DNA from: a virus
DNA: 46,203 nt
IMG/VR virus record: IMGVR_UViG_3300042558_002558
Span: 1 to 46,203 of that record
Reading direction: 5' to 3' (one strand)
This document shows positions 15,054-42,948 of the stretch, in pieces (position 1 is the first letter of the stretch; each line of letters opens with the position of its first letter). Below the pieces are notes generated by a model. It ran no database searches. It was given only the letters and a program-made list of their open reading frames with translations, and was not told the origin of the DNA. A program made the translations under genes and the position numbers.

Positions 15054-16288
15054 TGAGTTGTAATAATGATACAATATGTATATTACCATTTATACATCTA
15101 TATACTCAGCCGGATGGTGAAGTAAAACCATGTTGTATTGCGGGCGGATTTGATACAAAACAATCCTTACGAACTTCAACTATTGAAGAAATATTCAATT
15201 CGGATGAATACAAACAATTACGTTCCGATATGTTGGAAGGTAAAAGAAATAAAGTTTGTGATGTTTGCTATAGTAAAGAAGATAGAGGTGAATCATCTCC
15301 ACGCCAAATGTTTAATTCCAATACTCTTTGGCAAATGCCGGATGTTGGTATAGATAATTCAGTTCCGCTTGAATTTCAGCATATAGATATTCGTTTTTCA
15401 AACCTATGTAATTTTAAATGTAGAATGTGTAATCATAGTTTTTCATCTAATTGGTATGAAGATGCTAAGAAGATAGAACATGGCGGTTGGTTTCCATTCC
15501 TATCTGGCGAAGATACTAAAGTATTAAAAGCTAGTAAAACTATCGTAGAAGATATTATTCCATATTTGGGTAAGATAAAAAGTTTTTACTTTGCAGGTGG
15601 TGAACCTTTAATTACACCGGAGCATTATAAATTATTAAAATGGTTATATGAGAATGTGGAAGAAGAGGAAACTGATAGAGGGACTCACAAAGCATTATCG
15701 ATACACTATAATACAAATCTATCTACCATAAAATACGATGAGGATGAATTAATTAATTATTGGAAAGCATTCAGAAAAGTTCAATTGGCTATTTCGTGTG
15801 ATGGTGTATTTGATGTGGGTGAGTATCAAAGAACGGGATTTAATCATTTTACTTTTGTAAAAAATATGGAAGAGATATTGAATCACGCAACTCCACTAAC
15901 ATCCACTTCATTTCCGGATGGGTTTAGTTATAGTTTTCAATATACTACAACTATTTTTAATATTGAACATATATTTGATTTTATCAATTTTATGATAGAT
16001 GAGGGATATATCCAAACAACAGAAACAATTGATTTCTTTTATGCTTGGTCTCCTGAATGGACATCAATAAATAATTTATCTCAAAAAGATAAAAATAGAA
16101 TAACTAAATTATTTAATAGGAAGTTAAAAAAAATAGAATCGGAGAAAACTAAATCTCAATTAACATCTATATTAAATTATATGAATACACCATCAAATTA
16201 TTCATTGACTGATATGAAAGATATGATTGAAAAATTGGATAAATTAAATAATACAAACTATAAAAATATTTGTAAAATACAGTTATAA
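15053..16288 (+). CDS. N-terminal-twitch radical SAM protein (1)
   Basis: 411 aa. An N-terminal twitch/SPASM-like half cluster comes first (CILPFIHLYTQPDGEVKPCC, then KVCDVCYSKE). The radical SAM core follows with C119-x3-C123-x2-C126 (NLCNFKCRMC), the FAGGEPLITPEH segment and SCDG. This order, iron-sulfur twitch before the SAM core, is typical of 'twitch domain-containing radical SAM' proteins found in many environmental phages. A peptide or sugar-linked substrate is possible; none can be read. It follows the GT7 pair and precedes a second rSAM gene by one base. Confidence 0.85.
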   Translation: MSCNNDTICILPFIHLYTQPDGEVKPCCIAGGFDTKQSLRTSTIEEIFNSDEYKQLRSDMLEGKRNKVCDVCYSKEDRGESSPRQMFNSNTLWQMPDVGIDNSVPLEFQHIDIRFSNLCNFKCRMCNHSFSSNWYEDAKKIEHGGWFPFLSGEDTKVLKASKTIVEDIIPYLGKIKSFYFAGGEPLITPEHYKLLKWLYENVEEEETDRGTHKALSIHYNTNLSTIKYDEDELINYWKAFRKVQLAISCDGVFDVGEYQRTGFNHFTFVKNMEEILNHATPLTSTSFPDGFSYSFQYTTTIFNIEHIFDFINFMIDEGYIQTTETIDFFYAWSPEWTSINNLSQKDKNRITKLFNRKLKKIESEKTKSQLTSILNYMNTPSNYSLTDMKDMIEKLDKLNNTNYKNICKIQL

Positions 16289-16289
16289 T

Positions 16290-17732
16290 ATGATAGAAGA
16301 AATAGAACATAAAAAAACACCTACCTATGATGATGGTATAGCTGAAAATCCAATTTTTTCAAAAATGAAAGAGGATTTAAATGCAGTTGGATGTGGGTTT
16401 TGTTTGGCAAAGTGGACACAAGTTACTATGCACTTACAAATAGGTCACACTCACTCATGCCATCACCCCGGCACACACAAAATACCATTGAGTGAATTAA
16501 GTAGAAACCCAACCGCACTTCATAATACGAGATACAAAAAATCCTTAAGAAAAGAAATGTTAGAGGGTAAGAAACCCAAAGAGTGTGGGTATTGTTGGAA
16601 TGTGGAAGATAACTCCGATAGATTTTCAGATAGAGTATTTAAATCATCGGAAAGTTGGTCATCGCCACATTTAGATGCTATTAAAACATTAGATTGGAGA
16701 CAGGATTATAATCCAAAATATGTTGAAGTATCATTCTCAAATGCTTGTAACTTTAAATGTTCATATTGCGCACCTCAATTCTCATCACGTTGGATGGAGG
16801 AGATTGATGAATTTGGTGCGTATCCAACATCTGATAGATTCAACGATAAATTACATATGTTGAATGAGGGCAAGATGCCAATTCCATTAAGGGAACATAA
16901 CCCATATGTAGAAGCATTTTGGACATGGTGGCCTGATTTATATAGAGATTTGCATACATTCAGAATTACGGGTGGAGAACCATTGATGCATAAAGATACT
17001 TGGGATGTGTTTGAATATATTTTAGCACAAGAAAATCCAAACAAAAATCTTAAGTTAGCTATTAACTCTAATTTAGGTGTGCCGGATAAATTGATTGATA
17101 AATTTATTGAGAAGATAAAACAAATTGAAGATGAAGATAGAGTGCATGAATTCATTATATTTACATCATGTGATAGTTGGGGAGAGCAAGCTGAATACAT
17201 TAGACATGGATTGGAGTTTAATAAATTTTGGGATAACATTAATAAGATACTTACTCAATGTAAGAGGGTTAATCTAACATTTATGACAACATACAACGCT
17301 TTATCAGTTCCCAACTTCGATAAGTTAATACATGGTGTTTATGATTTGAAAAGAGAATATGCATCGCCTGATAGATATTGGAACTCAGCTGTATTTTTAG
17401 ATTCATCTTATTTAAGATTCCCGCATCATCAGACTGTTCAGGTGTTACCAATGGAGTTTGCAAATAATGTATATAGAAACACTCAATTAGTTGAATACTA
17501 CGCAACTCCATCATTTGATAGAAGATTGATTGGTTATTCTGATATTGAGGTTCAAAAAATTAAAAGAATCTATGATTGGATGTTATCGGATAAAGATCCT
17601 GCTGTTGTTGAAAAACAAAGAAAGAATTTCTATAAGTTCTTTAGTGAGCATGATAGAAGAAGAGGAACTGATTTTAAAAAGGTATATCCTGAATTAGCAG
17701 ATTTTTATGAAAATTGTAAAGCATTATGTTAA
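16290..17732 (+). CDS. N-terminal-twitch radical SAM protein (2)
   Basis: 480 aa, same architecture as the upstream gene. The N-terminal part has GCGFCLAKW, a His/Cys stretch HTHSCHHPGTHK, and ECGYCWNVED. The SAM core follows with C153-x3-C157-x2-C160 (NACNFKCSYC), then RITGGEPLMHKD and TSCDSWGEQAEYIRHG. The pair diverges strongly outside these motifs, so different substrates or sequential steps are likely. Its stop overlaps the LamG-like gene that follows by 7 nt, which tightly links radical SAM chemistry to lectin-type domains here. Confidence 0.85.
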   Translation: MIEEIEHKKTPTYDDGIAENPIFSKMKEDLNAVGCGFCLAKWTQVTMHLQIGHTHSCHHPGTHKIPLSELSRNPTALHNTRYKKSLRKEMLEGKKPKECGYCWNVEDNSDRFSDRVFKSSESWSSPHLDAIKTLDWRQDYNPKYVEVSFSNACNFKCSYCAPQFSSRWMEEIDEFGAYPTSDRFNDKLHMLNEGKMPIPLREHNPYVEAFWTWWPDLYRDLHTFRITGGEPLMHKDTWDVFEYILAQENPNKNLKLAINSNLGVPDKLIDKFIEKIKQIEDEDRVHEFIIFTSCDSWGEQAEYIRHGLEFNKFWDNINKILTQCKRVNLTFMTTYNALSVPNFDKLIHGVYDLKREYASPDRYWNSAVFLDSSYLRFPHHQTVQVLPMEFANNVYRNTQLVEYYATPSFDRRLIGYSDIEVQKIKRIYDWMLSDKDPAVVEKQRKNFYKFFSEHDRRRGTDFKKVYPELADFYENCKALC

Positions 17733-21318: not shown

Positions 21319-22327
21319 TAACGAATGGGGTGATTTAAAAGAAATCATCGTAGGTAGTGTAGAAGGAGCTCAAATACCAACTGTAAAGGATAAGGCTTTA
21401 CATTGTATAGATTATGCTCATTTAAGTGATGAACAATTTCAAAATATCCCAACAGGACCATATCCACAACAGGTTATGGAAGAAACATATGAAGATTTGG
21501 AAAACATATGTGATAAACTAAAAGAATTGGGTGTAAAAGTTCATAGACCCATAAAGCGTGATTTTACTGAAAAGAAAGGTAATGATTTATGGCAAGTTGA
21601 TGGATATTATAACTATTGTCCGCGTGATTCTATGTTGGTAGTTGGTAATAAAGTTATAGCAACACCCATGACATTAAGACATAGACAATTTGAATCAGAA
21701 ACCTGTAAACCATTAATACATCCCGACCATTGGGTTGATTTTCCTAAACCAATGTTGGGCGATGAGATGTATAGTAGAGAAGATTTAGGTAGACCTACAT
21801 TAATGGATGGGCCGGATGCTGTATTTGACGCAGCAAATGTTTTAAGAGCAAATAATGATATCATTTATTTAGTTTCTAACACAGGTAATTTGGCAGGAGC
21901 TGATTATTTGGAGAATTACTTAAAAGAAAACATATCACAAGATTATAACGTTCATAGAGTTCAAAATGTGTACGCTTATATTCATATTGATACTACATTT
22001 GTATTATTAAGAGAAGGATTGGTATTATTGAATCCATTGAGAGTTAATGATAGTAATATGCCCGAAATATTTAGAAATTGGGATAGAATTTGGTCACCCG
22101 AACCATTTGCAACACAAGTAATGGATGAATGGTGTCCTGCTTCTCCTTGGTTGGGTATGAATATACTTTCTATCAATGAAAAATTGGTAATGGTAGAAGA
22201 ACATCAAATCCTATTAATGAAGGAGTTAAAAAAATGGGGTGTTGATTCAATACCTGTTAGAATGAGACATAGTAGAACATTTAGTGGAGGCCCGCATTGT
22301 ATTACAACTGATATAGTAAGAGCATAA
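21299..22327 (+). CDS. Amidinotransferase (glycine/inosamine amidinotransferase family)
   Basis: 342 aa, the normal length for the AGAT/StrB1 family. Motifs: NEWGDLKEIIVGS at the N terminus; FDAANVLR (D177), compare FDAADFIR-type text; HIDTTFVLLREGLVLLNP with catalytic-type H229; and GGPHCITTDI with catalytic-type C334. These enzymes move an amidino group from arginine to an amine of glycine or of an aminocyclitol such as scyllo-inosamine. With the aminotransferase-like and carbamoyltransferase genes nearby, a guanidino sugar or cyclitol is plausible. It overlaps the preceding gene by 20 nt and the next by one base. Confidence 0.88.
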   Translation: MIIPHSNNEWGDLKEIIVGSVEGAQIPTVKDKALHCIDYAHLSDEQFQNIPTGPYPQQVMEETYEDLENICDKLKELGVKVHRPIKRDFTEKKGNDLWQVDGYYNYCPRDSMLVVGNKVIATPMTLRHRQFESETCKPLIHPDHWVDFPKPMLGDEMYSREDLGRPTLMDGPDAVFDAANVLRANNDIIYLVSNTGNLAGADYLENYLKENISQDYNVHRVQNVYAYIHIDTTFVLLREGLVLLNPLRVNDSNMPEIFRNWDRIWSPEPFATQVMDEWCPASPWLGMNILSINEKLVMVEEHQILLMKELKKWGVDSIPVRMRHSRTFSGGPHCITTDIVRA

Positions 22328-23055
22328 TGATAGTATTTTTAGGAGATAGCTTTACATGGGGACAAGGATTGCAATATATCCACCTAACCGAACATAAAGG
22401 TTGGACATGGGAAGAATGTTCTAAAATTATTCCACCAAATTTGAATTTAGAATGGTTGGAGTTTGATGAAGATGAGTTTAGAAAGCAAAACGCATTCCCC
22501 TATTTAGTAGCAAAGGAATTAAATCTACCATTTCAGGTTACACGATTTGAAAATGGTGGAGATAATGTTACTATATTACAATCTCTTCAAAATATCATGC
22601 CATTTTGCACACCAAATAATATATTTTGTTTTGTAGTTCAATTTAGCGATGCAAGTCGTAGTTTGGCACATGAATATAACCCATTAGATGGTAGTATTGA
22701 AAAACAAATAGAAAATCAAATAATTAGAATAGATAATCAATGTAAATTGTTAGATGTTCCGTGGATTGGTGTATCGTGGCAGCCTGAAATTGGAAATATC
22801 CTAAAAGAAAAGTATAGTAATAACTATATTCCAATTAATTACAATGGAACTGAATATACCAACTTTTCAACACGCCATATTGGACTTTCTGAATTGTTTT
22901 TAACACATAGTTATCCAATTAATGATGAACATTTTAATTTAAATGGGCATAAAGTAATAGCAAAATCAATATTAAACAAAATATCTTCTAGAAACGATTT
23001 AATAGATAAACATATTAGATATAAAGCGGAAGTGGAAAATGTAAGAAAGTTATGA
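22327..23055 (+). CDS. SGNH hydrolase-like protein (1)
   Basis: 242 aa. Opens with MIVFLGDSFTWGQG, the GDS block I with nucleophile-type S8, and ends with DEHFNLNGH (D200, H202), the catalytic Asp/His block V. Family members are esterases or acyltransferases acting on O-acyl groups of glycans. No signal peptide is present. A 4-nt overlap joins it to its closest paralogue downstream, and it starts one base into the stop of the amidinotransferase. Confidence 0.75.
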   Translation: MIVFLGDSFTWGQGLQYIHLTEHKGWTWEECSKIIPPNLNLEWLEFDEDEFRKQNAFPYLVAKELNLPFQVTRFENGGDNVTILQSLQNIMPFCTPNNIFCFVVQFSDASRSLAHEYNPLDGSIEKQIENQIIRIDNQCKLLDVPWIGVSWQPEIGNILKEKYSNNYIPINYNGTEYTNFSTRHIGLSELFLTHSYPINDEHFNLNGHKVIAKSILNKISSRNDLIDKHIRYKAEVENVRKL

Positions 23056-23834
23056 TAGTATTTTTGGGTGATAGTTTTACTTGGGGACAAGGATTGTTCT
23101 TTGAAAAGTGGGCATCTGAAGGGAAAGATGTTAAAAAGTGGTTTGATACCAATGGAGATGTGGATGAATACCCACATGAAAGTATTGATTACGAATCGGA
23201 TAAGTATAGAAAAGAAAATCACTTTCCTGCAATAGTTGCAAAGCATTTTAATAAGACATATACAACTAGATGGGGAAATGGTGGTAGTAATTGGGATATT
23301 GTTAACATATTAAATAATGTTCCATCATTAGCACCTCAGTATAGGAATACAATTGATTTATTTGTTATTCAATTTACGGATTTTACAAGAACTGACCATA
23401 GATTGATAAAGAATTCCGATTTAATAAACGAATTACCATTTGAAAGGAGTAAATTTCCATTAGAGTCAAACTATGATGATAACTCTATAATAGATGAATT
23501 GCTGCACAATGAGTTAAAGCTCCAAATAGAGATGGTTAATGATGTTATTGTTAATAAAATGAATAAAAAATGGATAGGTATATCTTGGTTAGATGATATG
23601 GGTAAGATATTAGAGAACGATTATCCAGAAAATCATATTACTGTTAACTATAATGGTAAAATACACAACTCATTTGAAAGAGTATATCAGGAAAAGAATA
23701 AAAATCTACTATTTTTAACCGAAAAATTTAATATTAGAGATGACCACTTTAATTTGGAAGGACATCAGTTTGTAGCTAAGAATATAATTCAAAAAATTGA
23801 TGAAAATCATCTATTAAAAAGAAACTTAATTTAA
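23052..23834 (+). CDS. SGNH hydrolase-like protein (2)
   Basis: 260 aa. Shares the first 15 residues exactly with the upstream gene (MIVFLGDSFTWGQGL), and ends with DDHFNLEGHQFVAKNI. The middle is diverged but retains the NGGSNWDIVNILN block. The DNA of the shared opening differs at synonymous sites, so the duplication is old or under amino-acid selection. It is followed by a 38-nt gap with a late-type motif, so it probably ends this subcluster. Confidence 0.75.
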   Translation: MIVFLGDSFTWGQGLFFEKWASEGKDVKKWFDTNGDVDEYPHESIDYESDKYRKENHFPAIVAKHFNKTYTTRWGNGGSNWDIVNILNNVPSLAPQYRNTIDLFVIQFTDFTRTDHRLIKNSDLINELPFERSKFPLESNYDDNSIIDELLHNELKLQIEMVNDVIVNKMNKKWIGISWLDDMGKILENDYPENHITVNYNGKIHNSFERVYQEKNKNLLFLTEKFNIRDDHFNLEGHQFVAKNIIQKIDENHLLKRNLI

Positions 23835-23872: not shown

Positions 23873-24652
23873 ATGATACCAAAATTTAAACACCTTACCA
23901 ACGAAGAAATCCAACAAATTACATTTGATTGGAGATATAAAGGTTGGACAGTTTTAGAATTACTTACTGAAACTGAAGTTGATGAAATCAACGAAGAATT
24001 AGATAGATTACGCTTAGAACGTAACGCAGCTGAGCCAGAAAAGTGGCAAGAGTATGAACCAATTATGTATCCACATAAATCATCTGAAAAAATAGAAAAA
24101 CTATTTGCTCATCCTAAAATGATTGAAGCTATGGAATTTCTTATGGAAGGTGAGGTTGTGGGAATGCAAACTTGGGGTTATTATAAACCAAAGGGTGAGT
24201 TAGGAAGAGACCAACATCAAAACGCATTCTATACTGGGTGTGGGCACAATGAAATCATCAACACTGCATTAGCATTAGATAATCACGACCCTGAAAATGG
24301 TGCAGTATGGAACTATGAAGGTTCTCATAGATTGCCTGTTTTACCAATGGAAGATAATGAAGAAAGAAAAGCAACAAATACTAAAAATTGGAGAAGTGAA
24401 AGGGGTATTAGTTGTGTAATGCCGGAAGGACATGATTTCAGAAAAGTGGAGGGTTATTTGAAAAAAGGACAAGTAGCACTTTTACACTCTCATGTTGTGC
24501 ATGGTTCAGATCCAAATAAAGATACTACTAGAATGAGAAGAAACTTCTTAGGTGGGTATTTAAAGAAAGGTGCTTATTTCAGACCGGGTAACCAAATGAA
24601 AAGAGAACCAATTGATATCTATGAATTACGTTCTAAACATTGGGGAGAATAA
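23873..24652 (+). CDS. Phytanoyl-CoA dioxygenase (PhyH)-like Fe(II)/2OG oxygenase
   Basis: 259 aa. Helical N terminus with FDWRYKGWTVLELLTETEVD, then the double-stranded beta-helix: GMQTWGYYKPKGELGRDQHQNAFY, LALDNHDPENGAVWNYEGSH, and LLHSHVVHGSDPN...TRMRRN. The expected HxD metal motif reads H115-Q116-N117, while the distal H210 (HGS) and the Arg that would bind 2-oxoglutarate look kept. Family members hydroxylate or otherwise oxidise small molecules and sugars. The N at the Asp position raises doubt about normal hydroxylation. It shares one base with the next gene (TAATG). Confidence 0.8.
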   Translation: MIPKFKHLTNEEIQQITFDWRYKGWTVLELLTETEVDEINEELDRLRLERNAAEPEKWQEYEPIMYPHKSSEKIEKLFAHPKMIEAMEFLMEGEVVGMQTWGYYKPKGELGRDQHQNAFYTGCGHNEIINTALALDNHDPENGAVWNYEGSHRLPVLPMEDNEERKATNTKNWRSERGISCVMPEGHDFRKVEGYLKKGQVALLHSHVVHGSDPNKDTTRMRRNFLGGYLKKGAYFRPGNQMKREPIDIYELRSKHWGE

Positions 24653-25623
24653 TGAAAGTATTAATCACAGGTGGTGCTGGTTATTTGGGGTCTGTAATAA
24701 CTGAAACATTATTAGATAATGGATACTATGTTACTTGCTTAGATAAATTAATATTTAGCCAATTATCGTTACTACCATATACATCAAATACAAATTTTAA
24801 ATTTGTTTATGGTGATGTTCGTAATGAGGAATTATTAGAAAGGCTTTGTAATGAGGCCGATGTAATAATTCCTCTTGCGGCAATTGTGGGATTCCCTGCG
24901 TGTGATGCAGAACCACAATTAGCAAATGAAGTTAACTTTAAGCAAATATTTAATATTGTAAAGTTTACTAAGGGCAAGAATAAAAAGATTTTATATCCAA
25001 ATACAAATAGTGGATATGGCATTGGAGTTGGACAAACTGAATGCACGGAAGAATCACCCCTAAACCCTATTTCAATATATGGTAACACCAAATGTGGAGC
25101 AGAAAACTTTCTAAGATCAAATACCGATGCTATTGTTTTCAGATTAGCAACTGTATTTGGTGTATCTCCTCGTATGAGAACCGATTTATTAGTAAATGAT
25201 TTTACTTACAAAGCAATTACCGATAAATACATTGTTGTATTTGAGAAAACTTTTAAACGTAATTTTATTCACATTAAAGATGTGGCAAGTGCTTTTCTTT
25301 TTATGATAAACAATTATGACAAATATAAATACGAAGTATTCAATGTTGGGTTAAGTAATGCAAATTTAAGTAAGCAAGAATTATTGGAAAAGATACAATC
25401 GCATGTAAAGGATTTTGCGGTATCATACAACGATTATTACGAAGATCCTGATAAGAGGGATTACATTGTATCAAATGCAAAAATAGAAGCAACTGGGTGG
25501 ATGCCTGAATGGAATTTAGATATGGGTATTACCGAACTAATAATGGCATATCAGATGATAGTTCCAAAAATGGGTTCTGAATTTAGAAATGGTTTCCCAT
25601 TAGGATATGCAAATCAAACATAA
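24652..25623 (+). CDS. NAD-dependent nucleotide-sugar epimerase/dehydratase (extended SDR, 1)
   Basis: 323 aa from the ATG at 24652; an in-frame TTG at 24640 lies in the preceding gene and is unlikely. Rossmann GGAGYLGS at residues 7-14; PNTNSGYG, then the YGNTK catalytic Y-x3-K; FRLATVFG and NFIHIKDVASAF follow as in UDP-glucose 4-epimerase and dTDP-glucose dehydratase relatives. Length is normal. It probably epimerises or dehydrates a nucleotide sugar. The next gene is an RmlC-like epimerase, so they may act in sequence. Confidence 0.85.
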   Translation: MKVLITGGAGYLGSVITETLLDNGYYVTCLDKLIFSQLSLLPYTSNTNFKFVYGDVRNEELLERLCNEADVIIPLAAIVGFPACDAEPQLANEVNFKQIFNIVKFTKGKNKKILYPNTNSGYGIGVGQTECTEESPLNPISIYGNTKCGAENFLRSNTDAIVFRLATVFGVSPRMRTDLLVNDFTYKAITDKYIVVFEKTFKRNFIHIKDVASAFLFMINNYDKYKYEVFNVGLSNANLSKQELLEKIQSHVKDFAVSYNDYYEDPDKRDYIVSNAKIEATGWMPEWNLDMGITELIMAYQMIVPKMGSEFRNGFPLGYANQT

Positions 25624-25624
25624 T

Positions 25625-26170
25625 ATGAGTAATAAATGGGATGAGTTTATAGAAACTCCATCAAAGGTATTCGGATATCAAGTTCCAACTTTTACTCCAT
25701 CAATTTATAGAGAGTATAGAGGTGAAATATTTACTACATTTCATAGTGAAGAACATCCTGTTATGAGGCACATTCATTATGATAAAAGTGAAATTAGTAT
25801 TCACGGAAGATTTTCAAAATCATATAAGGGTGTATTGAGGGGATTGCATTGGGATAATAAAACCTGGAAATTAGTTCAAGCAGCTGTAGGTGATATATAT
25901 TTGGTTGTTTTAGATATGAGAACAACATCAGATACATTTGGAGATTGGGAATCATTTATGATAACTGAAAAAGATAGGAATCAAGTATTAGTTCCACCGG
26001 GATTTGCAAATGGACATTATGCATTAACCGATTGTATGTTTCACTATAACTTATTTTATAAAGATGGTTATGTAGATGCTGATCAGCAAGGTGTAATCAA
26101 ATGGAATGATGCGGAATATCAAATGGAATGGCCAACGAATAATCCAATTTTACAAAAAAGAGATAGATAG
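25625..26170 (+). CDS. dTDP-4-dehydrorhamnose 3,5-epimerase-like (RmlC-like cupin)
   Basis: 181 aa from the ATG at 25625; an upstream ATG at 25607 overlaps the previous gene and adds only MQIKHN. The RmlC plan is clear: SYKGVLRGLHWDNKTWKLVQ (catalytic-type His in RGLHW), GDIYLVVLDMRTTSDTFGDW, VPPGFANGHYAL, and IKWNDAEYQMEW. RmlC inverts C3/C5 of a 4-keto-6-deoxy sugar nucleotide. Strict rhamnose synthesis would also need RmlD and a 4,6-dehydratase; candidates are the neighbouring SDR genes. Confidence 0.85.
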   Translation: MSNKWDEFIETPSKVFGYQVPTFTPSIYREYRGEIFTTFHSEEHPVMRHIHYDKSEISIHGRFSKSYKGVLRGLHWDNKTWKLVQAAVGDIYLVVLDMRTTSDTFGDWESFMITEKDRNQVLVPPGFANGHYALTDCMFHYNLFYKDGYVDADQQGVIKWNDAEYQMEWPTNNPILQKRDR

Positions 26171-26171
26171 T

Positions 26172-26801
26172 ATGATACAAAATTTAGAACAATATCCCAT
26201 AGTAAGGGATATAGATTGGACTGAAGAAAAACTTATTGCATTTGAACAACAAATTGTTGATATATGGGAAGCTGGTAAGATAACAGGCCCTGTCCATCTT
26301 TCAAATGGTAACGAATCTCAATTAATTGAAATCTTTAAGAGGATACGGGAATCCGATTGGGTGTTCTCAACCTGGCGTTCTCACTATCATTGGGTTTTGA
26401 AGGGATTATCTGCTGATTATGGAACTGAATTAATTAAACAAGGAAAATCTATCACTCTATGTGATACGGATGGTAAGTTTTATTCCTCAGCAATTGTAGG
26501 TGGGACATTACCTATTGCATTGGGGGTAGCATCTGCACTAAAGAAGGATGGTAGTGATGAAAAGGTATGGGTGTTTGTGGGAGATATGTCATTTGAAAGT
26601 GGTATATTTTATGAAGTTCATAAATATGCTAGAAACTTTGATTTACCTCTTTATTTTGTTGTAGAAGATAATGGAGTATCAACATATACCCCAACTGAAG
26701 CAACTTGGAATACTAAAAGGGATATCCCATCGGATGTTATACATTATAACTATGAATCTAAGTTTCCACATTATGGGACTGGAAAATGGATAGCATTTTA
26801 A
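26172..26801 (+). CDS. TPP-dependent E1 alpha-like subunit, short form
   Basis: 209 aa from the ATG at 26172 (an earlier in-frame ATG at 26106 overlaps the RmlC-like gene). Contains VHLSNGNESQ, STWRSHYHWVLKG (cf. YR.HG...L..G of E1 alpha), VGGTLPIALGVASALK, and the TPP motif VGDMSFESG...FVVEDN (GDG...N type). Normal E1 alpha is ~330-360 aa, so this is a trimmed TPP/Mg-binding half. The pyrimidine-binding partner is the E1 beta-like gene at 29046, 2.2 kb downstream. It may make or transfer a two-carbon unit onto a sugar. Confidence 0.8.
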   Translation: MIQNLEQYPIVRDIDWTEEKLIAFEQQIVDIWEAGKITGPVHLSNGNESQLIEIFKRIRESDWVFSTWRSHYHWVLKGLSADYGTELIKQGKSITLCDTDGKFYSSAIVGGTLPIALGVASALKKDGSDEKVWVFVGDMSFESGIFYEVHKYARNFDLPLYFVVEDNGVSTYTPTEATWNTKRDIPSDVIHYNYESKFPHYGTGKWIAF

Positions 26802-26808
26802 AAAAAAT

Positions 26809-26819
26809 TATATTTATAC
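26809..26819 (+). promoter_or_regulatory. Candidate phage late promoter motif (TATATTTATAC)
   Basis: TATATTTATAC starts 8 nt after the E1 alpha-like stop and 49 nt before the ATG at 26858. An inverted repeat GTTATA-ATA-TATAAC (26824-26838) lies between it and the start. An A-rich stretch immediately precedes the ATG. No TTG box is seen upstream. Confidence 0.4.
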
Positions 26820-26857
26820 AAAAGTTATAATATATAACAACTAAAAAATAAGAAAAA

Positions 26858-27112
26858 ATGGAATGGAAAGTTTTAACAATCGATAAAACAATAGAATCTA
26901 CATTTGTATCAGATGCTGAACCTCAAGAACTTATTGCTGAATTATCAGCATCAACTTCGCCTGATACAGAACCAATTGGGTATTTTTATTACAGTACCGG
27001 ATTATTTGAGCAATTAATCGTATCATCATCTACTACAGATAATATAAGAGTATTGGCAAATGAACAACACTATGATATGTTTTTAGCAGATGAATCGGCA
27101 TCTATGGCTTAA
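26858..27112 (+). CDS. Small unknown protein with its own leader
   Basis: 84 aa, acidic and Ser/Thr-rich: MEWKVLTIDKTIESTFVSDAEPQE, GYFYYSTGLFEQLIVSSSTTDNI. No family recognised. Unlike most island genes it has a 56-nt upstream gap with a late-type motif and a strong A-rich start. It sits between the E1 alpha-like gene and a sugar epimerase and breaks their otherwise tight packing. A regulatory, carrier or structural role is possible; I cannot choose. Confidence 0.5.
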   Translation: MEWKVLTIDKTIESTFVSDAEPQELIAELSASTSPDTEPIGYFYYSTGLFEQLIVSSSTTDNIRVLANEQHYDMFLADESASMA

Positions 27113-27132
27113 TTGCACAACAAAAATGTTAT

Positions 27133-28065
27133 ATGAAGAAAATATTGGTTACAGGAAGTAGCGGCTTAGTTGGCACACATCTAATTGAAAAGTTATTAGA
27201 AAAAGGTTATAATGTAATTGGGGTTGATTTTAAACCACCTGTTAAAGTCATTGATAATCAAAACTTTAAGTTTATTTCTTTTGATTTAAGAAATCAAACT
27301 GATGTTAGTTTATTGTTTAATGACTTTAAATTTGATGGGGTTATAAATTCATTTGGTATAAAAGGCTCCCCAATAAAAGCAAAAGAAAATCCACTAGATT
27401 TTTTAGAACCTTCTATTAAAGTTAATACTAACATTATAGACAATTGTTTTAAACACAATAGTTGGTTAGTATTCATGTCCTCAGTTGGCGTATATGAGCC
27501 AGCAGAAGAGTTTGTAGAAGATAGTGTATGGAAAACTCTACCATCTAAAAATGATTGGTTTCCATCTTGGTCAAAACGAATACCCGAACTTTACTTAGAA
27601 GCATATAAAGTCCAATATAAATGGCAAGATTGGTCTATAGTAAGGCCTGCCAATATATTTGGTGAATACGATAACTTTGGGGATGGTTCTACTGTAATAG
27701 CATCTACTATACGAAAAGTATATGAATCTGATGGTGAAATTGAAGCATGGGGTGATGGGACTCCTACCAGAGATTTTATTTATGCGGGAGATGTTGCAGA
27801 TGCTTGTATTAAATGCTTAGAAGATAAATTGCACATTACAACCAATTTGGGTAGTGGTGAAGATATTTCTATAAAAAGGATGATAGAAACTGTTTCTGAA
27901 GTTAGTGGTAAGGATATTCAAATAAATTGGGATACTACCAAACCAAATGGTGATATGAAACGAAAAATGAATACAAAATTGCAAGAACAATATGGATTAT
28001 TACCAAAATTGGGTTTTAAAGAAGGATTAAAAGTTACATACGAATATTATGAAAAAAACAGATAA
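27133..28065 (+). CDS. NAD-dependent nucleotide-sugar epimerase/dehydratase (extended SDR, 2)
   Basis: 310 aa. Rossmann GSSGLVGT at residues 8-15; FMSSVGVYEP; RPANIFGEYDNFGDGS; WGDGTPTRDFIYAGDVADA; KPNGDMKRKMNT. These last elements recall GDP-L-fucose synthase and related 3,5-epimerase/4-reductases. The expected catalytic YxxxK is not obvious: the aligned stretch reads FPSWSKR, with Pro where Tyr should be. It may be altered in activity, or my alignment may be off. It overlaps the next SDR by 17 nt. Confidence 0.8.
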   Translation: MKKILVTGSSGLVGTHLIEKLLEKGYNVIGVDFKPPVKVIDNQNFKFISFDLRNQTDVSLLFNDFKFDGVINSFGIKGSPIKAKENPLDFLEPSIKVNTNIIDNCFKHNSWLVFMSSVGVYEPAEEFVEDSVWKTLPSKNDWFPSWSKRIPELYLEAYKVQYKWQDWSIVRPANIFGEYDNFGDGSTVIASTIRKVYESDGEIEAWGDGTPTRDFIYAGDVADACIKCLEDKLHITTNLGSGEDISIKRMIETVSEVSGKDIQINWDTTKPNGDMKRKMNTKLQEQYGLLPKLGFKEGLKVTYEYYEKNR

Positions 28066-29041
28066 AATATTAGTTACAGGCGCTGCTGGATTTATTGGTT
28101 CTCGATTACTAAAAATGTTATGGGAAAGTGGTTACACTAATTTACGTGCAACATCTCATAGTAGAAATTTAAGAAACGATTTTGATGGTAGTAGTTCAAT
28201 TCCGTTTTACAAAGGAAGTTTGCAAGATGCAAAATTTTGCAATGAAGTTTCAGAAGGAGTTGATGTTGTATTTCATTGTGCAGCAAACACAACAAATGCA
28301 TTAGATACTAAAGTAAATCCATTATTGCATGTTACCCCAAATGTTGAAATGAATGTAAACTTAATGGAGCAAAGTTGGAAAAATGGTGTAAGAAAATTTG
28401 TGTTTCCATCATCTAATACAACATATCCTGATATGGGGTCAACTCCATGCACAGAAGATATAGAAGTTCAAACGCCAAACATATACCCTGTGTATAAAGC
28501 AGTAGGTTGGATGAAACGATATACCGAAACATTATGTGATTTCTTTTCAAATCAGATTCACAATCCAATGCAATGTATTGTATTAAGACCTTCAAATGCA
28601 TACGGTCCAAATGATAAATATGATTTTGAAAAGTGTCACGTTACGCCAGCATCAATCAGAAAGGTAGCTGATGGGTTAGATCCAATACCCGTTTGGGGAG
28701 ATGGAACGGAAGTTAGAGATATCATTCATGTTGATGATATGGTTAGTGGTTTTATTACAATAGCAGAGAAAGTTGATACCTATGATATCTATAATGTTTG
28801 CTATGGAGAAGGATACACTGTTAAAGATGTATTGGATACTATTAAAGAGATTGATGGTAATACCAATCCAATTGAATATGTAAACAACAAAGCTCCAATG
28901 ATACCGGTTAGATTGCTTTCTAATGCGAAGCTTCGTAAGTTGGGATGGAAACCTAAATATGATTTAAAGAGTGGATTGAAAGATGCACTAAAATGGTATA
29001 AAGAACACAAAAAAGAATTTAATCCAAATTCAAAACCTTAA
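28049..29041 (+). CDS. NAD-dependent nucleotide-sugar epimerase/dehydratase (extended SDR, 3)
   Basis: 330 aa. GAAGFIGS Rossmann loop at residues 11-18, FHCAANTTNA, FPSSNTTYPD, intact YPVYK (Y-x3-K), LRPSNAYGPNDKYDF, and VWGDGTEVRDIIHVDDMVSG. Together with the upstream gene this resembles GDP-fucose synthase/4-reductase and UDP-sugar epimerase families. The intact active site contrasts with its upstream neighbour, so the two could form a heterodimer or act on different sugars. It is directly followed by the E1 beta-like gene. Confidence 0.85.
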   Translation: MKKTDKILVTGAAGFIGSRLLKMLWESGYTNLRATSHSRNLRNDFDGSSSIPFYKGSLQDAKFCNEVSEGVDVVFHCAANTTNALDTKVNPLLHVTPNVEMNVNLMEQSWKNGVRKFVFPSSNTTYPDMGSTPCTEDIEVQTPNIYPVYKAVGWMKRYTETLCDFFSNQIHNPMQCIVLRPSNAYGPNDKYDFEKCHVTPASIRKVADGLDPIPVWGDGTEVRDIIHVDDMVSGFITIAEKVDTYDIYNVCYGEGYTVKDVLDTIKEIDGNTNPIEYVNNKAPMIPVRLLSNAKLRKLGWKPKYDLKSGLKDALKWYKEHKKEFNPNSKP

Positions 29042-29045
29042 TTAA

Positions 29046-29579
29046 ATGATAAGTTACACTAATTACAAAGACCAGTTATCCGAAGCAATGAAAATGTGTA
29101 ATGATGTAGAAAATTCTATATTCATTGGACAACAAATATTGTGGAAAGGTAATCCAATGTCAACTACATTAGATTTTGTAGATAAATCAAAGATGATTGA
29201 GGTGCCGGTAATGGAAGAAACGCAAATGGGAATGAGTTTGGGATTGGCAATGACTGATAAATTTGTAGTTACATTTTATCCACGTTGGGATTTTCTAATA
29301 TCAGCAACAAATCAGTTAGTAAATCATATTGATAAGTATTCACTAATGACTGGGATAACTCCACATATTATAATAAGAGTTGGCAAGGGTTCTGATAAAC
29401 CATTAGACCCGGGTCATCAACATAAGGGTAATTATATTGAAGAATTTAAGAGTATGTTAAAGACGGTTGAGATATTAGATTGCCAAACGGTAGTTGATAT
29501 ACAATTGAACTACGAATATGCTATAAAAAATAAAGGAATTTACTTAATAACCGAATATCCTGAGAAATACTATAATTAA
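29046..29579 (+). CDS. TPP-dependent E1 beta/transketolase pyrimidine domain-like subunit, short form
   Basis: 177 aa. Matches the pyrimidine-binding half of E1 beta: VENSIFIGQQI, IEVPVMEETQMGMSLGLAMTDK with the Glu expected to activate TPP, FVVTFYPRWDFLISATNQLVNH, then PHIIIRVGKG...HQHKGNYIEEF. It ends where the transketolase C-terminal domain would begin, so it is about half the usual length of E1 beta. It is the evident partner of the E1 alpha-like protein at 26172. Such minimal two-part TPP enzymes (compare sulfopyruvate decarboxylase ComDE) can be functional. Confidence 0.75.
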   Translation: MISYTNYKDQLSEAMKMCNDVENSIFIGQQILWKGNPMSTTLDFVDKSKMIEVPVMEETQMGMSLGLAMTDKFVVTFYPRWDFLISATNQLVNHIDKYSLMTGITPHIIIRVGKGSDKPLDPGHQHKGNYIEEFKSMLKTVEILDCQTVVDIQLNYEYAIKNKGIYLITEYPEKYYN

Positions 29580-29587
29580 AATGTTGT

Positions 29588-30727
29588 ATGAACAAAAGAA
29601 TATTAGATTATGGGTATGTATCCATTAGAATATTACAACCATTCTATTCATTGCCGGATACTCGTGACAATGCAAATGGAATCTATGATATAATTGTATG
29701 TGAACGAGATTCATTCCAAGATAATTTGGATGATATGTTACAATATGCACACAAAGATACTAAAATCTTAATAGATATCATTTCAGAATCCGGAAATTTA
29801 GACAATTTTATTGATATTTTTTTAGAATTAACCAATAAACACAAAGATGTTCAATTTTATCTATTAGTAGATAGTGTGTTTGATGTTAATGTAGGTAGCA
29901 ATGTTAAAATGCTACAATCTTATAAGCTTTCATTCTTACCTTTTTTTGAAAACTATTGTGTAGAACAACACGATTCTCAATTTGTATTAAATGATACATC
30001 AATTTATAATAAAAGAGATGGATTTTTATCATTAAATGGTTCGATGCGAACTCAAAGAATATTATTACTTATTGAATTGATTAAAAATGGGTATGTAAAT
30101 TTAGATGGGACAATTTCAAATATAAATAATAATATATCTTTTTTATTTTATGGTAATAACAAATTTGATATTGAAAGTTACAATATATTCATAGATAATA
30201 TGCTATTAAATGGAGAAATTACAAATGAAGAATTTGTTTTACTTAATTCCATATCAAATAGTTTACCAATAATAGTTAATGGTGAAATGGGTGAAAGACC
30301 TGATTTGCTTTTAAGAGAATACTACGCTAATATTTTAAATTTAGTTACCGATAATGCTACTGGGTTTGATGATTCTGATAATTTTAAGTATGGAACAATA
30401 ACTCTTACTGAAAAAGCTTGGAAACCATTCAAAACACATCAACTTCCTTTATATATAGGATTGCCTGGTTATGTAGATGTGATTAGAAATTTAGGATTTG
30501 ATGTATTTGATGATTTTATAAATCACAATTATGATAAAGAACAAAATCATGTAGAAAGAATTAAAATAGTTGTAGAAGAACTAAATAAATTAACTCAATT
30601 AGATATGTTAGAGTTCTATAATCAAAATCGTAAGAGATTTGTAAAAAATTGTGCTAATATTTATAAATTAAAAGCAGAGGCATATTTAGAACTTAATAAT
30701 TTTATAATAGAAAACGATTTAATATAA
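29588..30727 (+). CDS. GT10/fucosyltransferase-like family protein (copy C)
   Basis: 379 aa. The shared motifs are LNGSMRTQRILLLIELIK, then GTITLTEKAWKPFKTHQLPLYIGLPG and IRNLGFDVFDDF. The TEK.WKP signature and the following PL..G...(V)..(L)GF line up with copies A, B and D. The N-terminal third differs from the others. It is followed with a one-base overlap by the SAM synthetase-like gene. Donor and acceptor are unknown; assignment is by motif. Confidence 0.55.
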   Translation: MNKRILDYGYVSIRILQPFYSLPDTRDNANGIYDIIVCERDSFQDNLDDMLQYAHKDTKILIDIISESGNLDNFIDIFLELTNKHKDVQFYLLVDSVFDVNVGSNVKMLQSYKLSFLPFFENYCVEQHDSQFVLNDTSIYNKRDGFLSLNGSMRTQRILLLIELIKNGYVNLDGTISNINNNISFLFYGNNKFDIESYNIFIDNMLLNGEITNEEFVLLNSISNSLPIIVNGEMGERPDLLLREYYANILNLVTDNATGFDDSDNFKYGTITLTEKAWKPFKTHQLPLYIGLPGYVDVIRNLGFDVFDDFINHNYDKEQNHVERIKIVVEELNKLTQLDMLEFYNQNRKRFVKNCANIYKLKAEAYLELNNFIIENDLI

Positions 30728-37134: not shown

Positions 37135-37929
37135 ATGCAAAATATAAAAAACCTTATAGTATGTGGTGATTCGTTTACAGAAGGACATGATATGGGTGAA
37201 ACAGCATCATGGGCATATTGGACAGCTGATACTCTTAATTTAAAATTAAAAAACTTAGCATCTGGTGGAATGAGTAATGAATGGATATCGTTACAAACTA
37301 TAACATTTTTACAAAAAAATCCAGAATTATGGGATAGTTCAGTTGTTATAATAGCTTGGACCGAAATGATGAGACAGATGATTCATTTTGATGATATGGG
37401 TGGTAAAATTGGTAAATGGATATGGAGTGCACAACCAAACGATTTTATATCAGATGATTGTGGAGATGATACGCCAGGTTATTGGATATATAAACATAGA
37501 GATGCATTATATCCATTTTTTTCTGATTTAAATTGGGCATTGATGAAAACATATCAATCGATGTTAATGGTTAAAACTTTTTGTGATTCAAAAGGTATTC
37601 CATATATGTTTTTTGATGCTGTAAATGATAATAAACTATATTTTGAAAACAATAAGGTTTACATCCGAGACTATAAATTTGAAAAAGAAGAATTTAATTT
37701 AGATAATTCATTGAATTTTGTAAAGAGTATTGTTGATAAAAATATGGTGGATTTATTATTTGATGAAAAATATGTTGATGTGGATGGTACTCCTATTTTA
37801 CAATTTATACACAAATGGGGAGATGAAAGATATTGTGAGGGAAATTCGGGTCATACCAATATTATTGGGGCAAAGGAAGTTTCAAAATATATAATTAAGC
37901 ATTATGAGAGATTATACAATAAACGATAG
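37135..37929 (+). CDS. SGNH hydrolase-like protein (6)
   Basis: 264 aa. LIVCGDSFTEGHDMG with a regular GDS block, KNLASGGMSNEWISLQ as block II, WTEMMRQ, and GHTNIIGAKEVSKY near the C terminus with the late His. It is one of the more canonical members in this window. Its end overlaps the aminotransferase-like gene by 26 nt, an unusually long overlap that may mark coupling. Confidence 0.7.
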   Translation: MQNIKNLIVCGDSFTEGHDMGETASWAYWTADTLNLKLKNLASGGMSNEWISLQTITFLQKNPELWDSSVVIIAWTEMMRQMIHFDDMGGKIGKWIWSAQPNDFISDDCGDDTPGYWIYKHRDALYPFFSDLNWALMKTYQSMLMVKTFCDSKGIPYMFFDAVNDNKLYFENNKVYIRDYKFEKEEFNLDNSLNFVKSIVDKNMVDLLFDEKYVDVDGTPILQFIHKWGDERYCEGNSGHTNIIGAKEVSKYIIKHYERLYNKR

Positions 37930-38545
37930 TTGGGATTGGGTTACTCATTTTGAAAAAGAGATAGCAGAATATTGTGGTTCAAAATATGCAATAGCATGTG
38001 ATTCTAATACAAACGCAATTCGTTTAGTATTACATTATTTAGGAATAGTTGGACAAGAAATAGGAATACCAACAAGAACATATGTTTCGGTACCTAACCA
38101 AATCATCTTATCAGGCAATAAGCCGGTATTTCAAGATACTCAATGGGATGGTATGTATCAATTGGGTTATACTGGAATATATGATGCAGCAACTGCGTTC
38201 TATGAAGGAATGTATTATGATACATTGGATGAATCCTATATGATACTTTCTTTTCATTTTAAAAAAATCCTAAATATTGGAACGGGTGGGATAATCCTTA
38301 CAAATGATGATACTTTTAATCAATGGGCAAGACCTATGATATACGATGGTAGAGATAAAACTAAATTATATAAAGATGATGAGTTTGATTGTATTGGTTG
38401 GCATATGTATATGACTCCTGAGCAAGCAAAGAGAGGATTGGAAATATTTCATTCAGACAAAATAAAATCATTTAATCCACATTGTGGTGGTAGTTGGATG
38501 TATAAAGATTTAACGGAGCAAACAATATATAAAGATTACATTTAA
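37904..38545 (+). CDS. Short DegT/DnrJ/EryC1/StrS-type aminotransferase
   Basis: 213 aa against ~370 for the family. HFEKEIAEYCGSKYAIACDSNTNAIRL, GIPTRTYVSVPN, ILSGNKPVFQD, then SFHFKKILNIGTGGIILTND, which contains the PLP-lysine region (SF..K.L..G.GG). The C-terminal small domain is missing or very short, so it is either a minimal aminotransferase or a PLP-binding relative with another role. Family members aminate keto-sugars; StrS acts in aminocyclitol synthesis. It overlaps the SGNH gene before it by 26 nt. Confidence 0.75.
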   Translation: MRDYTINDSWDWVTHFEKEIAEYCGSKYAIACDSNTNAIRLVLHYLGIVGQEIGIPTRTYVSVPNQIILSGNKPVFQDTQWDGMYQLGYTGIYDAATAFYEGMYYDTLDESYMILSFHFKKILNIGTGGIILTNDDTFNQWARPMIYDGRDKTKLYKDDEFDCIGWHMYMTPEQAKRGLEIFHSDKIKSFNPHCGGSWMYKDLTEQTIYKDYI

Positions 38546-38549
38546 AGTT

Positions 38550-40475
38550 TTGAATAATAAGTTACAAATATCATTCGTTCAACCAAATTTCAGACAAGGG
38601 CCTGGTGGAATAGCTGCATATTTACCATATAGTTGTGGTTTATTATGGGCACATGCTCAAACAAATGAATTGGTGAAGGTTGGTATTAAACTTCATAGAA
38701 TAATATACAATAGAGAACCAATAAATCGGTTAGCTATTGAATTATCTAAAATGGATATAGTTGCATTTTCAACTTATGTGTGGAATCGTAATTATAACTT
38801 TACATTGGCTAAGAAAATAAAAGAAATCAATCCAAATGTATTGGTAATATTCGGAGGACCAGAACCACCAATTAGTGATTCTCAAATTTTTAGTAAATGG
38901 ATGCCATTTGCTGATTTGGTTGTTAAAAGCGAAGGTGAATTTATATTCACAAAGGTTTTGGAGAGTAGAGTATTGGGTAGGTGGTATGATTTAATACCTG
39001 GATTACTTATTAATGTAAATGGTGAGGTTTTAAACACTGGTAGTGCTATCCGAATTGAAACACTAGATGATGTTCCATCTCCATATCTAACGGGTGTATT
39101 TGATGATATAATGCCGCTAGAAAACGAATGGAACGGAACATTAGAAACTAATAGAGGGTGTCCTTATAAGTGCACATTTTGTGATTGGGGTTCTTTAACT
39201 TATAGTAAGGTAAAACAATTTGGTTTGACTAGAGTATTTCACGAATTAGAGTGGATGGCTGATAATAAGATAGGCTATTTGGATGTAGCAGATGCCAACT
39301 TTGGTATATTCGTTGAAAGAGATAATATGATTGTGGATAAACTAATAGAAGTTCAGAAAAGAACAGGATATCCGTATAGAACAGGATGGAGTTGGGCTAA
39401 AAATCAGAAATCTGAGGTAGTTGCTATAGCTAAAAAGCTAATTAATAGCGGACACTTCAATAATGGGTTAACAATTAGCTTACAATCGTTGGATGAGAAC
39501 ACATTAAAGACAATTAAAAGGAATAACTTGGGTATTAATAAGATATCGGATATATTTGAGGAGTGTAGAATGATGGGAGTTCCCCTAAACACCGAATTAA
39601 TCATTGGATTACCTGGTGAAACATTAGAAAGTTGGACAGATACGATGTTTGGTGTATTGGAAGTGGGGCAGCATGATAGTATTGAAGCATGGCAGGCTCA
39701 AATATTAGAAAACGCTGAGATGAATCTTTCTCAAAGAGAATCCCATACGATTAGAGGACAATATGTTTACGATTACTTCCCAAATGCTTCAGATGATGAG
39801 GCACCTGAACATAGTGAGATAGTTGTATCAACATCAACTATGAATATTAACGAAATGATAGAAGCTTATAAGTTATCTTGGTTTTTAATAACGTGGCATA
39901 CGGGTGGATTCTCTCAAATTGCTGCCAGATTCATTAGAAAACATAAAGGAGATACATATAAAGAGTTTTATACTAAATTTAGGGAGTTTTTACAATCTGA
40001 TCCGTTTTGGAAAGAAGAGGAAGATACTCTTAGTGATATTATGATGAATTGGTTTGATAAAGGTGAAAGAATAGATACCACAATAGGACCGGTTCGTATA
40101 AACGCATCTACAAATCAATATAGAACCCTATTTAGAGTTCATTCAGATGAGAAATATGAACATATGTATGAGTTATTGAGTAGATTCATCGATACATATC
40201 AGTTACCAATTGAGATTACACAAGATTTAATGATGTTAAACAAATGTGTGGTAGCTGAACAAAGAAATTTGATAGATTATAGTTTTAATATGAATTATAA
40301 TTTATTGGAATATATTATAGATATGGATTCTGAATTGAAAGGTGAGGAAACTACTATAAAAATAACATATCCACATGACCCAATTCGTAGCAAGGATTTG
40401 GCATGGTTTATGGAAAGCTTATTCTTTGCAAGAAGAAGAAGTTTTGGTAAAAACTTTTTGGAAACAATAAAATAG
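38550..40475 (+). CDS. B12-binding-type radical SAM protein
   Basis: 641 aa from a TTG start at 38550; no ATG lies near, and the sequence following (LQISFVQPNFRQGPGGIAAY) is a natural N terminus. Residues ~1-140 look like a B12-binding domain, VAFSTYVWNRNY then VIFGGPEPPIS. The radical SAM core has C204-x3-C208-x2-C211 (GCPYKCTFC), LDVADANFGIF, LTISLQSLDENTLKTIKRNN and ELIIGLPGETLESW. Such enzymes do methyl transfer, ring changes or C-C bond steps on sugars and antibiotics. It is the second radical SAM type in the island. Confidence 0.85.
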   Translation: MNNKLQISFVQPNFRQGPGGIAAYLPYSCGLLWAHAQTNELVKVGIKLHRIIYNREPINRLAIELSKMDIVAFSTYVWNRNYNFTLAKKIKEINPNVLVIFGGPEPPISDSQIFSKWMPFADLVVKSEGEFIFTKVLESRVLGRWYDLIPGLLINVNGEVLNTGSAIRIETLDDVPSPYLTGVFDDIMPLENEWNGTLETNRGCPYKCTFCDWGSLTYSKVKQFGLTRVFHELEWMADNKIGYLDVADANFGIFVERDNMIVDKLIEVQKRTGYPYRTGWSWAKNQKSEVVAIAKKLINSGHFNNGLTISLQSLDENTLKTIKRNNLGINKISDIFEECRMMGVPLNTELIIGLPGETLESWTDTMFGVLEVGQHDSIEAWQAQILENAEMNLSQRESHTIRGQYVYDYFPNASDDEAPEHSEIVVSTSTMNINEMIEAYKLSWFLITWHTGGFSQIAARFIRKHKGDTYKEFYTKFREFLQSDPFWKEEEDTLSDIMMNWFDKGERIDTTIGPVRINASTNQYRTLFRVHSDEKYEHMYELLSRFIDTYQLPIEITQDLMMLNKCVVAEQRNLIDYSFNMNYNLLEYIIDMDSELKGEETTIKITYPHDPIRSKDLAWFMESLFFARRRSFGKNFLETIK

Positions 40476-42236: not shown

Positions 42237-42948
42237 TCACGGAGATTCGGTAGTATGGGGAGCTGAGTTAGAAGATAAAAAAACGGAAAGATTCTCACAC
42301 CATGTTGCTAATAATTTAAATGCAATGGATTGTAATAATGCATCGGCTGGTGTTTCTAATGATTATATTTATAGACAAACAATGAGAGATGTTTCCCATT
42401 GGTTAAGTAATAGAGTTGTTTGGAGTGAAGATAATGGTTGGATTAATGCATCAAATCTTATAGTAGTAATAGGTTGGACTGCACCTACTCGATTTGAATG
42501 GTGGGATGGTAATAAATACCAACAGGAAAGATTGTGGGTGGGATATGATAAATGGGGTGAGCCGGATACAAATAGGACAACTGAAGATCAATTTGTTTTA
42601 AACCAAACTTCGGATATACCATCGTATATCAGAACATTTAATCATATTATTTCGTTATCTGCATTTTTGGAAAAACATAATATATCATATTATTTCTTTA
42701 ATAGTTTTTACGAATATAAACTTCCAAAAGAACCAACGGATTTAATAGATAATTATGGTAAACCACATTTTCAATTAGATTTAAATTCATTATGGTCACA
42801 ATTGCCCGATGAATTTACATTTGGAACAATGTATGAACACATAAAATTTATGGGTGAGGGATTTTTACCACGCAATCATCCATCAAAAGAGGCACATAAA
42901 GAATGGGGCCACTTTTTAATAAAAGAATTAGAAAATGAAAAACGATAA
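42220..42948 (+). CDS. SGNH hydrolase-like protein (9)
   Basis: 242 aa. LALYSHGDSVVWGAELEDKK with GDS, NNASAGVSNDYIYRQTMRD as block II, VVIGWTAPTRFEWW, and PRNHPSKEAHKEWGHFLI with the late His. The last of the three-gene SGNH run. Its end overlaps the carbamoyltransferase by 14 nt, so esterase/acyltransferase and carbamoyl transfer are probably coexpressed. Confidence 0.68.
   Translation: MLALYSHGDSVVWGAELEDKKTERFSHHVANNLNAMDCNNASAGVSNDYIYRQTMRDVSHWLSNRVVWSEDNGWINASNLIVVIGWTAPTRFEWWDGNKYQQERLWVGYDKWGEPDTNRTTEDQFVLNQTSDIPSYIRTFNHIISLSAFLEKHNISYYFFNSFYEYKLPKEPTDLIDNYGKPHFQLDLNSLWSQLPDEFTFGTMYEHIKFMGEGFLPRNHPSKEAHKEWGHFLIKELENEKR

Follow-up and report, generated by a model that had tools for sequence, protein, structure and literature searches.

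A probable split thiamine pyrophosphate enzyme of minimal size

The window analysed here is the whole 46,203-nucleotide stretch of IMG/VR virus record IMGVR_UViG_3300042558_002558, a glycan island adjoining tail-fibre genes. Two short genes within it encode proteins resembling the alpha and beta subunits of the E1 component of 2-oxoacid dehydrogenases, and are termed here the PP half (pyrophosphate/Mg-binding) and the PYR half (aminopyrimidine-binding). A preliminary description of this DNA had proposed that the 209-aa and 177-aa products are the halves of one thiamine pyrophosphate (TPP) enzyme. Both open reading frames (ORFs) were recovered with these lengths (Table 1), and their pairing in phages, a natural fusion and the predicted fold of that fusion bear the proposal out: together, PP and PYR very probably constitute a single TPP enzyme.

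PP matches the Pfam family E1_dh beyond its curated cut-off (2.9e-13), with a weak match to TPP_enzyme_C (5.4e-05) ranking behind it, and finds human pyruvate dehydrogenase (PDH) E1-alpha at 7e-9 as a single sequence and at 2e-20 with a family profile. Its start was set at 26172, where the relatives begin with a shared MIxNLExYxIVR; the alternative longer start at 26106 is absent among them. The GD...N cofactor motif noted earlier is present as G137-D138...N167, a GD(X28)N that fits the GDX25-30N of thiamine diphosphate enzymes; across an alignment of 29 sequences G137 is invariant, and D138 and N167 are conserved in at least 90%. This motif, together with R69, H71, Y72 and H73 of the RxH region, is retained with few exceptions in phage and cellular relatives, the clade of the window having GDM where others have GDG.

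For PYR, searches with the protein alone gave weak signals (0.07 for E1-beta chains in the PDB; 0.0024 for Transket_pyr, under the Pfam cut-off), and the Pfam scan returned no match to TPP_enzyme_N or TPP_enzyme_C. Its family profile, which was also compared with profiles of full-length E1-beta relatives, aligned to residues 6-176 of the 329 of human PDH E1-beta at 2.7e-16. An AlphaFold2 model, computed from a 34-row alignment that left out two GenBank phage rows, reached a mean local confidence (pLDDT) of 94 and a predicted TM-score (pTM) of 0.91, and its best PDB matches by Foldseek were PDH E1-beta chains (TM 0.85, 16% identity). The activating glutamate of the preliminary description is E57, which aligns with the catalytic Glu of human PDH E1-beta in the profile comparison, as does H126 with the His of the AQHSQ motif; both residues are invariant in the 34 aligned sequences.

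The halves are indeed about half the normal size, at 50-65% of full-length relatives (~320-345 aa for alpha, 324-367 aa for beta). PYR ends at the boundary between the PYR and transketolase C-terminal (TKC) domains, where its profile alignment stops, and the TKC domain is absent from split and fused forms alike, in line with the earlier claim that it is missing. Because the C-terminal part of E1-alpha is absent as well, each protein consists of its core domain only. Furthermore, synonymous change far exceeds nonsynonymous change in both genes (dN/dS ~0.08 for PP and ~0.2 for PYR). We rejected the possibility that they are pseudogenes or decayed fragments, because their length is kept over ~80 phage loci and dN/dS is low.

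Table 1 The PP and PYR genes and their neighbours in the window
Feature	Coordinates	Strand	Basis
Extended short-chain dehydrogenase/reductase 1 (SDR1), normal Y143/K147	24652-25623	+	PF01370 2.8e-33; Y143, K147 conserved
RmlC-like cupin, the most constant partner, immediately upstream of PP	25607-26170	+	PF00908 2.8e-30
PP half, E1-alpha-type, 209 aa	26172-26801	+	E1_dh, phrog_34187, conserved motifs, PDH E1-alpha match
84-aa ORF without assigned function, specific to the window phage	26858-27112	+	no family match
SDR2, extended SDR (GDP-fucose synthase/GalE-like), catalytic Tyr replaced	27133-28065	+	PF01370 1.8e-40
SDR3, extended SDR, catalytic Tyr replaced	28049-29041	+	PF01370 3.2e-45
PYR half, E1-beta-type, 177 aa, without transketolase C-terminal domain	29046-29579	+	phrog_34187, AlphaFold2/Foldseek, E57 and H126
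379-aa protein without assigned function, directly downstream of PYR	29588-30727	+	similar ORFs recur around the pair

The two halves co-occur in phages and are naturally fused

To follow the pair into other phages, as had been suggested, we searched IMG/VR with PP, which returned at least 160 viral relatives, and examined 80 loci (some counts below use 81 phage loci). PYR lay within the examined DNA in 67 of the 80 and just past 10 kb in the full record in 5 more; in the remaining 8 the contig ends shortly after PP. Thus all 72 phage records with sufficient downstream DNA hold both halves. Judged by sequence, the phages that carry the pair are T4-like, and the Gp23 major capsid protein was found in 8 of 10 large phage records tested.

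The spacing of the two genes varies widely. They adjoin in 10 loci, including one with a 28-bp overlap, lie ~2 kb apart in 6 (among them a twin contig of the window phage) and 3.6-9.3 kb apart in 48, with distances above 10 kb at the far end of the range; in three phage loci the order is inverted, with PYR upstream of PP. The DNA between them holds a varying set of sugar genes. The description of the halves as divided by three genes is therefore correct for the window, but the split is not peculiar to this phage.

In Synechococcus phage S-SM2 and Prochlorococcus phage P-TIM68, PP and PYR form one protein of 381-402 aa, annotated as ‘transketolase central region-containing protein’, and such a fusion is encoded in 57 viral loci. 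The fusion family, phrog_34187, has no assigned function; PP matches its positions 2-200 (9.9e-52) and PYR its positions 237-402 (1.6e-15), in that order. An AlphaFold2 model of the S-SM2 fusion (pLDDT 88.9, pTM 0.91) aligned along its whole length with residues 15-477 of human transketolase (354 residues, Z 20.0, root-mean-square deviation (rmsd) 3.8); the matched stretch comprises PP and PYR and nothing of the C-terminal domain. This model, computed without TPP and from a sister clade, serves as a stand-in for a PP:PYR co-fold. A DXS-like single-chain arrangement was rejected because the fused model superposed poorly on DXS chains in Foldseek (TM 0.35, rmsd 18), a comparison of one predicted monomer only.

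Cellular relatives place the minimal pair in a family of its own

In GTDB genomes, a scan found the two minimal genes overlapping or side by side (~195-210 aa and 173-190 aa) in SAR11, gammaproteobacteria, Chloroflexota, candidate-phyla bacteria and DPANN archaea, with PP+PYR fusions in Prochlorococcus and others; cellular records L142-L144, L177 and L188 are contigs of metagenome-assembled genomes that may be phage or misplaced. In a PP tree the minimal family stands apart from full-length E1-alpha with support of 100/100, a separation that rests on a long branch and on an outgroup picked by similarity. Within the family, a fused-type clade (96/91), with some split pairs among its members, is sister to a split-type clade (99/96), and the phage split sequences form one branch within the cellular split clade. 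We rejected a split of one normal gene confined to a single lineage, because cellular members of the split clade have overlapping pairs and the fusions fall in the sister clade. Division into two genes is ordinary within this family.

Two of these loci hold further TPP-type genes. A gammaproteobacterial genome carries, two genes past its minimal pair, a second and larger split pair (278 and 332 aa; L145:9885-11673) resembling the N and C parts of transketolase, and an archaeal contig (L153) holds two PYR-type genes of different subclades ~10 kb apart (132-656 and 10611-11168).

Sugar genes surround the pair

The RmlC-like gene occurs in 73 of 81 phage loci and lies upstream of PP in 71 of 75, with its end no more than 50 bp from PP in 50 of 75. 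Relatives of SDR1 are present in 64 of 81 loci, those of SDR2 and SDR3 in 64-66 and those of the 379-aa protein in 54. Distance-matrix correlations, to every one of which shared phage descent contributes, were highest among the RmlC-like protein, PP and PYR (r 0.52-0.60), lower for SDR2 and SDR3 (0.30-0.41) and least for SDR1 (0.08-0.14).

Between the halves, the preliminary description had placed a small unknown gene and two sugar epimerases. The small gene stands: its 84-aa product had no family match in Pfam or PHROG scans and, among the phage loci, occurs only in the window and in one near-identical contig. The other two genes do encode SDRs, but the epimerase label is insecure because both proteins lack the catalytic Tyr of YxxxK. 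SDR2 conserves W146 and K148 with no Tyr at K-4, and SDR3 conserves K156 and E160 with V152 in the Tyr position; a W-x-K signature in place of the YxxxK Tyr is common to phage and cellular relatives of SDR2/SDR3, which are perhaps neither ordinary epimerases nor ordinary reductases. In several cellular loci, SDR2 relatives also come after PP and PYR.

The context of the minimal family, as far as gene content tells, is one of sugar genes and not of central metabolism. In SAR11, the pair is accompanied by an HddA-like heptose kinase, a GmhB-HddC-like fusion, a Gmd-like dehydratase, RmlC and Fcl-like SDRs. Of 59 fused viral loci, 58 contain a Zn-dependent alcohol dehydrogenase and a carbohydrate kinase, 37 a GmhA-like gene and 40 an HldE-like gene. 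In several loci, the nearest full-length E1 pairs are flanked by a 4,6-dehydratase-like SDR and a DegT aminotransferase gene. We also looked for the lipoyl motif of E2 components (E-[TSAV]-D-K): none occurs in window ORFs above 300 aa, and large ORFs near family members and their closest full-length relatives gave none except one chance-like match, in two viral loci.

Several other features were observed. In seven phage loci (L062, L071, L075, L078, L079, L081 and L082) a 577-591-aa protein has PYR as its N-terminal part, while its C-terminal part resembles the 379-aa product next to PYR in the window and is possibly a glycosyltransferase. Elsewhere in the window, a DegT/DnrJ/EryC1-type aminotransferase ORF (37904-38542) has just 213 aa (normally ~360-400) between intact neighbours and is possibly another minimal sugar enzyme. 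The glycan island also encodes three radical SAM proteins, one with SPASM and another of the B12-binding kind (15053-17732 and 38550-40475), a NodU/Nol-like carbamoyltransferase (42935-44617; phrog_1601, 6e-112), and tandem 472-aa paralogues combining a GT7-type galactosyltransferase with a LamG/concanavalin-like domain (12220-13638 and 13635-15053). Tandem SGNH-hydrolase-type paralogues (22327-23055 and 23052-23834) both start MIVFLGDSFTWGQGL, the first with a weak GDSL match, and more SGNH-like ORFs follow downstream. A 780-aa open frame antisense to the collagen-like tail-fibre gene (5072-7414, minus strand) is probably a by-product of repeat composition.

The pair may transfer a two-carbon unit to a sugar

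The explanation we favour, with a probability of about 0.52, is a minimal heteromeric E1-type carboligase that would place a C2 unit from pyruvate onto a keto-sugar. It is based on kinship, predicted fold, motifs, pairing, conservation and sugar context; heteromer formation, donor, acceptor, product and location of the glycan we infer as follows. PP and PYR would form a complex, probably alpha2beta2, holding TPP-Mg at the PP/PYR interface and acting without a lipoyl E2. Pyruvate, or a similar 2-oxoacid, would be decarboxylated, and the C2 unit would be passed to the ketone of a nucleoside diphosphate (NDP)-keto-sugar prepared by the surrounding RmlC-like and SDR enzymes, yielding a sugar with an acetyl or hydroxyethyl branch, destined for a phage-encoded glycan. 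There is precedent for such chemistry: E1-type pairs outside dehydrogenase complexes are reported to add C2 from pyruvate to keto-sugars, as in avilamycin (AviB1/B2), paulomycin (Plm8/9), kosinostatin, aldgamycin and kibdelomycin (KbDH) formation; they are described as a group specialised in making C2 branches, and the branch is later reduced, methylated, oxidised or transaminated (PMC12247030, PMC4802897, PMC4753412). The earlier suggestion of a sugar-directed two-carbon transfer is well supported by these pairs and by the genes around the minimal family (the RmlC-like gene beside PP, the SDRs, the GDP-heptose-type genes of SAR11); with a substrate proposed by analogy, we give C2 transfer to a sugar about an even chance.

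Some observations weigh against this explanation. No gene of the window is evidently a classical NDP-sugar 4,6-dehydratase; the 4-keto acceptor would therefore have to be supplied by the host or from elsewhere in the phage genome. SDR2 and SDR3 are without the usual catalytic Tyr, and we therefore do not assign the side-chain reductase step to them. The heptose-gene association of the relatives would also suit a transketolase-like role, and substrate, product and activity are putative, being drawn from analogy.

That transketolase-like role, in which a ketol (glycolaldehyde) unit would be moved between sugars, for example in building or trimming heptoses or longer sugars, appears unlikely. The fused relative superposes best on transketolases, but over a PP/PYR core that is common to both and cannot separate transketolase from E1 chemistry; the heptose-type genes of the fused viral and SAR11 loci, with the alcohol dehydrogenase and carbohydrate kinase of the former, speak for such a role, whereas the profiles match E1-alpha and E1-beta far better, down to the catalytic His of E1-beta (H126), and hosts possess their own transketolase. 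A decarboxylase, the other function considered in the preliminary description, would release a free aldehyde from a 2-oxoacid non-oxidatively, as do ComDE and RhiEF. Because these two-gene minimal enzymes share the PP/PYR split (PMC12141560), the minimal architecture suffices for decarboxylation; still, we consider this function unlikely as well, as PP prefers E1_dh to TPP_enzyme_C, PYR resembles E1-beta, and no obvious aldehyde-using gene was seen in the window.

It is far less probable that the pair serves as E1 to a host E2 in an oxidative 2-oxoacid dehydrogenase complex. Its closest PDB sequence matches are PDH E1 subunits, but the C-terminal half of E1-alpha and the C-terminal domain of E1-beta are missing, the lipoyl motif survey above found no E2, and the context is one of sugar genes; an ordinary PDH E1 partnering E2 was rejected on the absent motif and the shortened halves. 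Equally remote is the prospect that the halves lack catalytic activity or do not act jointly: the distance between the genes in the window-phage lineage, the three inverted loci and the shortness of each half would fit it, against which stand the invariant catalytic residues, low dN/dS, complete co-occurrence, and overlapping or fused cellular pairs.

A broader scenario can be put forward tentatively, at somewhat less than even odds: an undescribed minimal E1-type family would make branched-chain nucleotide sugars in SAR11-like bacteria and in DPANN and candidate phyla radiation (CPR) lineages, and T4-like phages would have acquired it for their own or host-surface glycans, the phage operon having opened to take exchangeable sugar cassettes between the halves.

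Novelty and relation to known systems

The minimal E1-type family, which many aquatic phages and bacteria have in common, is apparently undescribed. The Pfam and NCBIfam libraries used hold no family of its own for E1-type proteins without the C-terminal domain, and PHROGs assigns no function; a literature search, with subscription papers mostly outside it, found nothing relevant on a phage branched-sugar TPP enzyme or a phage ‘transketolase central region’. Already known are minimal two-subunit TPP decarboxylases (PMC12141560) and split transketolases with longer subunits (PMC7661550). Thiamine enzymes thereby gain a compact E1-type family, both split and naturally fused, where two-subunit minimal TPP enzymes have so far, within the literature found, been described for decarboxylases (ComDE, RhiEF). 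The family suggests a dedicated C-C bond-forming sugar chemistry in T4-like phages and marks the surface glycans of phages or SAR11 as places where branched-chain sugars could be sought directly. Subunits this small would, as C-C bond makers, also be useful biocatalysts, and its split and fused forms offer a means to ask why subunits stay apart or join.

The 2-oxoacid dehydrogenase E1 enzymes (PDH and branched-chain 2-oxoacid dehydrogenase, BCKDH; alphaKADH2/K2 in TEED) likewise carry PP on alpha and PYR on beta, share GDX25-30N, the catalytic Glu and the E1-beta His with the window pair, and are its best PDB matches in sequence and fold; by contrast, the window proteins end after their PP and PYR cores, have neither TKC domain nor lipoyl E2, and fall in the separate 100/100 clade. 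AviB1/AviB2, Plm8/Plm9 (Pau11/12), KbDH and aldgamycin-type pairs, compared by description, are also E1-type heteromers among deoxysugar genes, and by analogy the reaction type is likely the same; they belong to actinobacterial antibiotic clusters, whereas the window family is of minimal size and occurs in phages, SAR11 and DPANN. The sulfopyruvate (ComDE) and phosphonopyruvate (RhiEF) decarboxylases resemble the window pair in having two small subunits (PYR and PP) and no third domain, with TPP at the subunit interface (PMC12141560), but their sequences are of decarboxylase type and those of the window family of E1 type. The split-gene transketolase of Carboxydothermus hydrogenoformans is also divided into PP and PYR polypeptides (PMC7661550; 6yak, 6yaj), its N-component having 309 aa and its C-component ~311 aa, whereas the window proteins have 209 and 177 aa and lack the C-terminal domain. 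Finally, the phrog_34187 fusions hold the same two halves in order within a single ~400-aa chain partnered by a Zn-dependent alcohol dehydrogenase and a carbohydrate kinase, whereas the window encodes two proteins.

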